The notes under the pieces: model-generated | The model's input: only the letters and a program-made list of their open reading frames with translations | Told to the model about the DNA's origin: nothing | The model's database searches: none | Assembly: GCA_019312665.1 (NCBI GenBank) | Contig: JAFDCZ010000007.1 | Span: 1 to 53,584, forward strand | Origin: Deltaproteobacteria bacterium | GTDB lineage: Bacteria > Myxococcota_A > UBA9160 > UBA6930 | Length of the DNA stretch: 53,584 nucleotides | Direction of reading: 5' to 3' | Translations under genes and position numbers: made by a program | Part shown: piece by piece, positions 11,444-19,844 of the stretch | Layout: the number at the start of each line of letters is the position of its first letter | Position numbering within the stretch: the first letter of the stretch is position 1

Positions 11444-12022
11444 ATGAGCGAAAAACAGGACGAATCGTCTTTCTCCAACCCGTTCTTCCGGATGGCGGAC
11501 CGCCTCTTCAAGGCCCGCACCCTGCTGCTTCACGGTGAGATCACCTCCCTGGTGGCACAGCAGGTGACCGCCCAACTGTTGGCACTGGCCGCGGAAAACG
11601 ACGACCCGATCACCATCTTCCTCCATTCCGAGGGTGGACACGTCGAGGCCGGCGATTCCATTCACGACATGATCCGCTTCGTGAAGCCACGCATCATCAT
11701 GTTGGGCACGGGCTGGGTCGCCAGCGCCGGCGCCCACATCTTTCTCTCGGTACCGAAAGAGGATCGGCTCTGTCTGCCGAACACCCGCTTCATGATCCAC
11801 CAGCCCTTGGGCGGTGTCGGCGGGCGAGCGAGCGACATCGGAATCGAGGCAGAGGAGATCGTGAAGGCCCGCGACCGACTGAACCAGACGATCGCCGACG
11901 CCACGGGCCAGCCGATCGAAAAAGTCGAGAAAGACACCGACCGCAACTACTGGATGTCCCCGGAAGAGGCCCAGGCCTACGGCATCGTGGGTCGGATCGT
12001 GGAGACCTCCGAGGACCTCTAG
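11444..12022 (+). CDS. clpP: ATP-dependent Clp protease proteolytic subunit (ClpP-type)
   Basis: ClpP forms the tetradecameric peptidase chamber that works with ClpX/ClpA unfoldases. The complete catalytic triad is visible: Ser94 in GWVASAGA, His119 in RFMIHQPLGG and Asp166 in KDTDRNYWMS. At 192 aa the length is normal for the mature protein, with no propeptide. No clpX, clpA or tig lies beside it, so it is probably a second, stand-alone copy in this genome (inference). It follows the PHP gene by 29 nt and precedes the split permease by 21 nt, so the genes may be co-transcribed. Confidence 0.93.
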   Translation: MSEKQDESSFSNPFFRMADRLFKARTLLLHGEITSLVAQQVTAQLLALAAENDDPITIFLHSEGGHVEAGDSIHDMIRFVKPRIIMLGTGWVASAGAHIFLSVPKEDRLCLPNTRFMIHQPLGGVGGRASDIGIEAEEIVKARDRLNQTIADATGQPIEKVEKDTDRNYWMSPEEAQAYGIVGRIVETSEDL

Positions 12023-12043: not shown

Positions 12044-12706
12044 ATGCGTCCGGATTTTCCCTTCCGCCCGGCGGCGTTTCCGTTCTTCTACGGCTGGGTG
12101 ATCGTCGCCGCCGCGACGCTCGGAATCGTGGCGAGCATCCCGGGGCAGACGATGGGTGTCTCGGTCTTCACCGATCACCTGATCGAAGCCACCGGACTCT
12201 CGCGGCTCCAGATCAGCAACGCCTACCTGCTGGGCACGCTCATGAGCGGCCTGCTTCTGCCTCTCGGCGGCAGCCTCGTCGATCGCTTCGGCGTCCGCCG
12301 CACGGTGGTGGTGGCCTGCTCCGGGCTGGCGATCACCTTGACGTTTCTCGCCTTCGCGGATCGGCTCGCCGTAGATCTGGCGACAGCCGTGCCTTTCATT
12401 CCTGTCGCGGGTGCCTCCTTCGCACTCCTCGCGTTGGGGTTCACGGGGATTCGATTCAGTGGCCAGGGCATGCTCACCCTGGTGAGCCGAACCATGATGG
12501 CCCGCTGGTTCGAACGACGGCGCGGCCTGGTCTCCGCCATCTCGGGCCCCTTTGTGAATTTCTCCTTCGCGGGAGCACCACTTCTACTCGCGTTGTGGAT
12601 CGGCCGAGCGGGCTGGCGAGGCGCCTGGCTCGAGATGGCGATCACGGTCGGCGTCGGAATGAGTGCGATGGGCTGGCTCCTGTTCCGGGAGAGCCCAGAA
12701 GAATGA
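12044..12706 (+). CDS. MFS permease, N-terminal half (TM1-6)
   Basis: This 220-residue product has six hydrophobic segments and the MFS motif-A loop GGSLVDRFGVRRTVV between TM2 and TM3, so it is the N-terminal half of a 12-TM major facilitator. It ends ESPEE followed by TGA at 12704-12706. The next gene continues in the same frame with the C-terminal half. The stop falls in the central cytoplasmic loop, where an interruption least damages the fold. It may be a pseudogene, a sequencing error, a read-through site or a true two-subunit permease. The start is the ATG at 12044. Confidence 0.8.
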   Translation: MRPDFPFRPAAFPFFYGWVIVAAATLGIVASIPGQTMGVSVFTDHLIEATGLSRLQISNAYLLGTLMSGLLLPLGGSLVDRFGVRRTVVVACSGLAITLTFLAFADRLAVDLATAVPFIPVAGASFALLALGFTGIRFSGQGMLTLVSRTMMARWFERRRGLVSAISGPFVNFSFAGAPLLLALWIGRAGWRGAWLEMAITVGVGMSAMGWLLFRESPEE

Positions 12707-12715
12707 GGCTTGGCC

Positions 12716-13372
12716 ATGGATGGGGACGAGCAGGCGGCGCAGGAGGACTCCGCGGCCACGACCCAGCAGAGCGGGAACCCGGGCTTTACCCGCGCCGAAG
12801 CCCTTCGGACCGGCGCCTTCTGGTTGGTCACGTCCGGCATCGGGATCCAGGCCATGGTTGGGACGGGTATCACATTCCACATCGTCGACCTGGGTTCAGA
12901 AATGGGGCTCAACGCGGCGCAATCCGTGGCGATCTTCCTGCCCATCGCGCTCGTCGCGACGCCGGTCGGCTTTTTCGCGGGCATGGCAGCCGATCGTTTC
13001 CCGATTCGCCACCTGATCATGACGATGATGGTCGGGCAGGTGTTGATGTTCGCCGGAATTGCGAACATGGGAGACCCTTGGCTGCGTTTCGTTGCCATTG
13101 CGGGCTGGGGTCTCGCCAGCGGTTTCTACGGTCCGCTCACGGTCGCCGCCTTGCCGAGTTTCTTTGGGAGAACCCATCTGGGCTCGATCCAGGGCGCCAT
13201 GATGAGTTGCCTGGTCATCTCCAGTGCCCTTGGCCCTTCGGCCCTGGCCCTCCTACACGGTTCGTTCGGATCCTACGTGCCAGGCCTCTACTTGATGATC
13301 GCGTTGCCCATCGGCGTCTTGCTCGTCGCACCGTTCACGAGAGATCCGGTCCACCCGACGGAGGCCCGCTGA
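12716..13372 (+). CDS. MFS permease, C-terminal half (TM7-12)
   Basis: The frame is the same as the preceding half-gene and is separated from it only by one TGA. The ATG at 12716 (in-frame TTG at 12710 also possible) has GAGG at 12705-12708, 7 nt upstream, overlapping the upstream stop, so independent reinitiation is plausible. The product has an acidic N-terminal linker, six hydrophobic segments and the second motif-A-like loop GMAADRFPIRHLIM. Together the halves make about 440 residues, the normal MFS length; the nearest recognisable type is the oxalate/formate-antiporter-like or monocarboxylate-like group. Substrate unknown. It converges with the spermidine-synthase-like gene, 17 nt away. 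Confidence 0.8.
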   Translation: MDGDEQAAQEDSAATTQQSGNPGFTRAEALRTGAFWLVTSGIGIQAMVGTGITFHIVDLGSEMGLNAAQSVAIFLPIALVATPVGFFAGMAADRFPIRHLIMTMMVGQVLMFAGIANMGDPWLRFVAIAGWGLASGFYGPLTVAALPSFFGRTHLGSIQGAMMSCLVISSALGPSALALLHGSFGSYVPGLYLMIALPIGVLLVAPFTRDPVHPTEAR

Positions 13373-17742: not shown

Positions 17743-18916
<1,174 letters not shown>

Positions 18917-18927
<11 letters not shown>

Positions 18928-19001
18928 CGGGGACGGGGTTTACAATTGACTTGTTGCTCCGCAACAAGTCAATTGTAAACCCCGTCCCCGTTATTGAGTT
19001 A
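18917..19001. repeat. Perfect 41-bp inverted repeat with 3-nt loop between convergent genes
   Basis: Left arm 18917-18957 and right arm 18961-19001 are exact reverse complements around TCC. The arm has a core ACGGGGACGGGG, an A/T-rich section TTTACAATTGAC and the loop-proximal TTGTTGC. The element contains the stop codons of both flanking genes (TAA at 18925-18927 and TAA on the minus strand at 18999-19001). It can act as a two-way terminator, but the perfect arms and the composition, unlike the flanks, fit a REP/RAYT-mobilised palindrome better than an ordinary terminator. Confidence 0.9.
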
Positions 19002-19844
19002 CTCGTCTTGGGATCGGGTGAGTACTTCGACGCCGTCTTCTGTGACGAGGATGGTGTGCTCCCATTGGGCGGAGAGCTTCCCGTCGACGGTGACGGCGGT
19101 CCAGCCGTCATCGAGGATGTCGGTCTTCCAGTGGCCGAGGTTGATCATGGGCTCGATCGTGAAGGTCATGCCGGCGCGCAGATGCATGCCGGTACCCGGG
19201 GTGCCGTAGTGAAGAATGGACGGCGGCGTGTGGAAGACGCGGCCGGTGCCGTGGCCGGTGAACTCGCGGACGACTTCGTAGCCCTGAGCTTCGGCAAAGG
19301 TCTGGATGGCGTGCCCGATATCGCCGACCCGGCTGCCATCCTTCACCGTTCGGATGCCGAGCCACATCGCGTGCCACGTGTCCTTGACCAGCCGCCGCGC
19401 CACGGGTGAGACGTCGCCGATCATGAACGTGCGAGATGAATCACCGTGCCAGCCATTCAGGAGCGGAGTGACGTCGACGTTCACGATGTCACCTTCGCGA
19501 AGCGCGCGGCCCTCGTCCGGAATGCCATGGCAAACCACATCGTTCACTGACGTACAGCAATGACCCGGGAAGGGAGGCGTACCGTGGTTCACATAGCCGT
19601 AGGGCGCGCTGGTCGCCCCGGCGGAGCGGGTCATTTCGTCGACGGCCTGATCCACCGCTGCGGTCGTGACACCTGGCCCGATCATCTCGGCCACCACGTC
19701 GAGGATCTCGCAGGCCAGACGCCCGGCGGCGCGCATGCCGTCCGCTTCCTCAGGCGAGAGAATGGGGCAGGGCGATTTGGAGCGACCGCCCCGACTCGCC
19801 CGCCCGCCCGAGCGGGCCTTTTTCTTGTTCTTCTTCATGCGCAT
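18999..19844 (-). CDS. map: Methionine aminopeptidase, type I
   Basis: Map removes the initiator Met from nascent proteins and uses a dinuclear metal site. All ligands are present: YVNHGTPPFPGH (substrate His), VNVDVTP and HGDSSRTF (two Asp), EFTGHGTGRVFHTPP (His), FTIEPM (Glu) and QWEHTILVTEDG (Glu). The first 30 residues form a lysine/arginine-rich extension (KKNKKKAR), with the paired starts at 19844 and 19838 equally possible. The catalytic region is about 250 aa as usual. It lies 44 nt downstream of the acetyl-CoA carboxylase, so it may be the last gene of the lipid operon. Its stop lies in the palindrome. Confidence 0.92.
   Translation of the reverse strand: MRMKKNKKKARSGGRASRGGRSKSPCPILSPEEADGMRAAGRLACEILDVVAEMIGPGVTTAAVDQAVDEMTRSAGATSAPYGYVNHGTPPFPGHCCTSVNDVVCHGIPDEGRALREGDIVNVDVTPLLNGWHGDSSRTFMIGDVSPVARRLVKDTWHAMWLGIRTVKDGSRVGDIGHAIQTFAEAQGYEVVREFTGHGTGRVFHTPPSILHYGTPGTGMHLRAGMTFTIEPMINLGHWKTDILDDGWTAVTVDGKLSAQWEHTILVTEDGVEVLTRSQDE

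Follow-up and report, generated by a model that had tools for sequence, protein, structure and literature searches.

An in-frame TGA at a nearly invariant cysteine codon of an MFS carrier gene in a genome encoding selenocysteine machinery

Carrier gene and predicted protein

The question raised by this locus is why a gene for a carrier of the major facilitator superfamily (MFS) is interrupted by one in-frame TGA, which might divide the carrier into two separately translated halves, be read as selenocysteine (Sec), or be a nonsense mutation or an error of the consensus sequence. The locus was analyzed within the window, i.e., the whole stretch of 53,584 nt on contig JAFDCZ010000007.1 (assembly GCA_019312665.1) of a Deltaproteobacteria bacterium. 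The features considered are the following:

11444-12022, + strand: upstream gene in the same frame as the carrier, ending 21 nt before it
12044-12706, + strand: N-terminal half (220 aa) of the MFS carrier, comprising the first helix bundle and closed by the in-frame TGA
12704-12706, + strand: in-frame TGA, at the site of a nearly invariant Cys codon in homologues
12705-12708, + strand: GAGG, a Shine-Dalgarno (SD)-like four-base motif overlapping the stop codon, the same base making both
12707-12768, + strand: zone in which a bacterial SECIS would be expected, 62 nt, with a hairpin not above background and without GU
12716-13372, + strand: C-terminal half (218 aa) with the second helix bundle, if read from the ATG at which translation may restart

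Translation of positions 12044-13372 (+) gave one frame with a single interruption, in which 220 codons are followed by the TGA (12704-12706) and then by 221 codons up to the terminal TGA (13370-13372). A TTG at 12710 is an alternative possible start for the C-terminal half. The Pfam profile MFS_1 (PF07690; cut-off 33.4 bits) scored 53.6 bits with the N-terminal half, 62.2 bits with the C-terminal half, and 116.4 bits with the read-through product, which has 442 residues with the TGA at position 221. Translation and profile scores agree with the statement of the earlier note that both halves lie in one frame and form one MFS carrier. The AlphaFold model of the read-through carrier, built from a 28-row alignment, has a pLDDT of 88.4 and shows two helix bundles; both features by which MFS membership was judged, the MFS_1 profile and the two-bundle helical fold, were found. 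Residue 221 was placed in the loop joining helices 160-213 and 257-278, which bears out the central-loop position given earlier for the stop, and a disordered stretch (231-244) comes directly after it in the model.

The best Foldseek matches of the model were 6g9x (TM 0.72/0.79, 22% identity) and the OxlT structure 8hpk; 6g9x and 6hcl are, we take it, structures of SfMCT. By sequence, the best curated family was NCBIfam SfMCT (NF049980), with 90 bits against an equivalog cut-off of 320, a score far too low for the SfMCT L-lactate carrier, and this identity is not supported. A PDB sequence search with the carrier returned nothing at E<=0.001. The carrier shares its fold with the SfMCT and OxlT carriers (6g9x, 6hcl, and 8hpk) but differs from them in falling far under the SfMCT cut-off and in having no PDB sequence match. 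Since the SfMCT score is that low, the only justified label is an MCT/OFA-like MFS carrier with the substrate unassigned. The upstream gene, presumably ClpP/SppA-like as judged by eye, precedes the carrier also in G003 and G004, two genomes of the same genus in which the gene order around the carrier is identical. Given the 21-nt gap and the shared frame, the two genes may be co-transcribed.

Orthologues, the replaced residue, and selection

Orthologues were searched in sets of 60 genomes, 79 genomes of the order, and 377 genomes of the phylum, the studied genome being counted in. Of the 376 other phylum genomes searched, 38 had an orthologue at E<=1e-55, none of them with an internal TGA; at the order level, 26 other genomes matched at E<=1e-60. 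In all three sets, a TGA inside the orthologue was confined to the studied genome. The split is private to this genome in these searches, and a conserved split architecture, for which the earlier note had proposed a check of homologues, is not supported, the relatives being fused. The closest orthologue, L005 of genome G003, is 92% identical and one uninterrupted frame with TGC at the site, one base different from TGA. A TAG flagged by the search as the same split in G003 was rejected, being the terminal codon of the G003 gene itself in the alignment.

The residue at the stop site was read in 33 of the 38 phylum orthologues and in one homologue from outside the phylum (L037). The alignment comprised 30 homologue rows, three of which are repeat contigs (L034, L035, and L036), leaving 27 distinct homologues; 24 of these have Cys (TGC/TGT), two have Ser (L016 and L037), and one has His (L057). 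All three same-genus orthologues (G003, G004, and G001) carry Cys, as do seven of seven further homologues from other classes. The nearly invariant Cys lies in the motif PE-x-C-G-L-x-M-D-G (PEECGLxMDG). The standard sign of a selenoprotein, and the signature of a Cys/Sec pair, is a TGA where homologues conserve Cys; such an alignment of UGA with a conserved Cys, not raised in the earlier note, was observed here. In the L005 gene, 3 of the 82 single-base routes to a stop start from Cys codons and 1 of the 82 from the conserved Cys, which is also the starting point of 1 of the 11 routes in the central loop. These counts strongly favour Sec and give mild support to a split in the loop; they also count against a private nonsense mutation. 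A random nonsense change exactly at the conserved Cys, as TGA, in a Sec-decoding genome would be a notable coincidence.

The dN/dS values between the studied gene and L005 were 0.05 for the N-terminal half and 0.17 for the C-terminal half. With L006 as the outgroup, the synonymous/nonsynonymous counts were 19/4 on the own branch and 28/6 on the L005 branch for the N-terminal half, and 23/11 and 15/8, respectively, for the C-terminal half. The recount with two outgroups gave 9/2 (own) and 17/3 (L005) for the N-terminal half and 7/8 (own) and 6/5 (L005) for the C-terminal half, small numbers in which the lineages are alike. A rough likelihood, with one outgroup and small counts, limited the share of the own branch with an unconstrained C-terminal half to at most 0.30 (95%). 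Neither half shows relaxed selection or decay on the own branch in these comparisons, and one codon sets the gene apart from all relatives examined. A decayed pseudogene was ruled out, as there is no other stop or frame break and the ratios are like those of the intact sister gene. Because the C-terminal half shows no relaxation, the stop is recent or spurious, or ribosomes routinely read through it or restart after it; with at most 30% of the branch free of constraint, this half would have been translated most of the time since the species parted. No other gene-interrupting stop was found in the genes comparable with relatives at 4.2-25.5 kb of the window, frames opposite or shifted to real genes having been discounted on visual inspection, and no other convincing within-gene stop turned up when the entire window was scanned, again with judgement by eye. 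Since no other compared gene at 4.2-25.5 kb is broken and the other three MFS matches of the genome are intact, nonsense interruptions look rare in this genome, which likewise counts against private nonsense.

Selenocysteine machinery and SECIS tests

Profile searches of the studied genome found SelA (510 bits, cut-off 268), SelB (277 bits, cut-off 242), tRNA-Sec (68 bits, cut-off 47), and, over the cut-off, a SelD that carries an in-frame TGA. Among 14 control genomes, SelA exceeded the cut-off in one, SelB in two, tRNA-Sec in five, and SelD in two; the SelB and tRNA-Sec profiles gave sub-cut-off signals in all 14, so the cut-off matters. The sole Rdx/SelW-like protein of the studied genome has an in-frame TGA, as do 7 of its 17 AhpC-TSA matches and none of its six CMD matches. 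Judged by gene content, the genome is Sec-decoding and Sec-rich. Its selenoprotein loci with one TGA each are L060, L074, L078, L079, L081, L082, L086, L088, and L090. A second SelD-type match, L061 (G000:C392:14478-15389; 248.6 bits, over the cut-off), has no TGA; the open frame around it has 841 aa and may encode a fusion protein. Genome G021 has, at L044 (G021:C140), two tRNA-Sec matches of 74.4 bits each, separated by about 1.3 kb of the same contig.

The limits of the SECIS consensus were taken from the legend of Fig. 2 in PMC13188914. The candidate fits them formally (-13.1 kcal/mol, loop GAGGA 36 nt away); the energy limit of -7.5 with the loop rules was also reached by 83% of 315 random window codons, and the published limits are for this reason useless in this GC-rich genome. 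A stricter test required the loop to lie 14-28 nt downstream of the UGA, with G within its first two positions. Here the candidate hairpin had -9.5 kcal/mol, a score at the background median: among the window's Cys codons, 57.6% of 172 scored as well, and among the random codons, 55.2% of 315. All 19 genuine Sec sites scored -10.9 or better; they comprise nine sites of the studied genome (three families) and 10 Rdx sites of relatives, and are called genuine by family and position, experiment not being involved. The Cys form in the sister L005 folds better than the candidate (-17.1 vs. -9.5), and plain folding z-scores were -0.1 to +0.5 for three downstream stretches holding the candidate. GU is absent from the 62 nt after the candidate UGA, whereas GU at 14-32 nt was present in 17 of the 19 genuine sites vs. 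60% of the background. A perfect-stem score, which discriminates less than the hairpin score, gave none for the candidate but also none for 5 of the 19 genuine sites. Since, according to PMC13188914, a SECIS resembling the model is missing from some selenoprotein genes, the weak SECIS result lowers the Sec reading rather than eliminating it.

Restart signal and rival explanations

The spacing from the TGA (12704-12706) to the ATG at 12716 is +9 nt, and the GAGG at 12705-12708 stands exactly 7 nt before this ATG, just as the earlier note had reported. The motif is not independent of the stop: it is made of the GA of the TGA and the GG of the next codon, and because that codon is Gly (GGN), the base that makes the stop also makes the GAGG. 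The GG follows the Cys codon in 26 of the 27 Cys rows among the 30 homologue rows, and an ATG is already at the restart position in 14 of the 30 rows, each also with Cys-GG. Comparison with homologues indicates that ATG 12716 is an older Met codon predating the stop. With one base producing stop and GAGG together and the ATG already in place, the restart signal is a by-product of the mutation. An SD-like four-base motif occurs by chance before 17 of 171 internal in-frame ATGs of long window ORFs (about 10%). In PMC10666635, E. coli gene pairs with gaps of +9 to +12 nt form a described class, which the stop and start of the window, at +9 nt with an SD-like motif, resemble; a restart of the second half is therefore physically plausible. 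This much of the restart interpretation stands, whereas its reading as a built-in signal is weakened by the private split and by the origin of the GAGG in the stop mutation.

A functional two-subunit carrier, in which ribosomes would terminate at TGA 12704 and begin again at ATG 12716 via the GAGG, and the two bundles would assemble, is in our judgement, on which all such gradings here rest, quite improbable. It is consistent with the modelled position of the stop between the bundles, with the constraint on both halves, and with the likeness to the E. coli pairs in spacing and in the GAGG at 7 nt (PMC10666635). Split membrane protein fragments can reassemble, with natural cases known mostly from bacteria and organelles (PMC3464245). 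The likeness to natural or artificial split polytopic membrane proteins is a break in an inter-domain loop and assembly possible in principle; the carrier differs from them in that one private base change made the break and the fission is not conserved. A close stop and start with an SD-like motif, as expected for termination-reinitiation, was found, but retention of the split in relatives was not; no relative is split, the derived GAGG and the older ATG give no sign of selection for restart, and about one in ten internal ATGs carries such a motif by chance. Read-through, raised only briefly in the earlier note, deserves more weight than restart because the TGA stands in for a conserved Cys, and does so in a genome predicted to decode Sec. 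If the TGA is read as Sec, the product would be one full-length carrier of 442 residues whose central loop holds Sec at position 221 through a private Cys-to-Sec exchange, a reading we hold to be doubtful but worth serious attention. Like bacterial selenoproteins with Cys homologues, the carrier has its TGA at a conserved Cys (the 24 of 27 and seven of seven homologues above) in a genome with Sec machinery and many Sec genes (SelA, SelB, tRNA-Sec, and the TGA-containing SelD, Rdx/SelW-like, and AhpC-TSA genes), and both halves are constrained. Published predictions place Sec in certain transporters as well, YeeE/YedE among them (PMC13188914). Unlike those selenoproteins, it has no SECIS above background, the hairpin being weaker than in 19 of 19 genuine sites and no better than over half of the background, and no GU in the zone; it is confined to a single species, no second TGA-bearing homologue having been found in the other 38 genomes of the phylum that carry an orthologue, although a UGA homologue in another organism is expected of a selenoprotein. 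The read-through sequence also lacks a CxxU/UxxC-type redox motif, and a private Sec in a non-redox protein is rare. Single-organism UGA cases rank only as candidates (PMC1088965), and lone TGA cases may be sequencing errors, as PMC1088965 and PMC2398784 warn. A more elaborate form, in which the loop Cys of an MFS carrier has just been replaced by Sec, the SECIS is weak, and one mRNA yields the full-length carrier and the halves in a selenium-dependent balance, appears unlikely.

A private nonsense mutation or consensus error in a normally fused MFS carrier is the preferred explanation, and we give it about an even chance. It is supported by the fused genes in 38 of 38 other phylum genomes, the TGC of L005, the lack of relaxed selection on either half, and the lack of a SECIS above background; against it stand the few Cys routes and the apparent rarity of nonsense noted above. 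A normally fused MCT/OFA-like carrier would have acquired one private base change in its central loop, Cys TGC to TGA, and the TGA would represent a nonsense allele that arose recently in the population sampled, or else an error of the consensus. If the allele is real, translation would stop after residue 220 and some ribosomes would probably re-initiate at ATG 12716. We infer the recency or error of the stop, and the behaviour of ribosomes at the TGA, from these comparisons. If TGA were reassigned throughout the genome (to Cys, Trp, or another residue), a single internal TGA in a gene that is open everywhere else would be explained; the carrier gene itself terminates with TGA (13370-13372), and the other in-gene TGAs seen in this genome were in SelD, Rdx, and AhpC-TSA, as expected for Sec, so reassignment was rejected as scarcely credible. 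Unspecified other explanations are very improbable together.

A mere mutation or error would have little importance beyond annotation. The case also shows that an in-frame TGA at a conserved Cys in Sec-decoding genomes needs a recoding test before a split gene is called. If Sec is inserted, the carrier would be, as far as the literature searched shows, the first MFS selenoprotein candidate: a search for an MFS selenoprotein found no paper, and a term search of the text of the 2026 review PMC13188914 gave neither 'MFS' nor 'major facilitator'. Sec could then be accommodated in a secondary transporter of many helices, away from any thioredoxin-like motif, ribosomes that terminate could likewise restart in the Cys-Gly-x-x-Met codon context, and the role of the almost invariant loop Cys in this carrier family would come into question.

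Elsewhere in the window, positions 18910-19007 hold an interspersed repeat, palindromic and about 60-90 bp long, which we assume to be REP/MITE-like; it occurs at dozens of sites on both strands in G003 and at few in G004, with none listed for G001.
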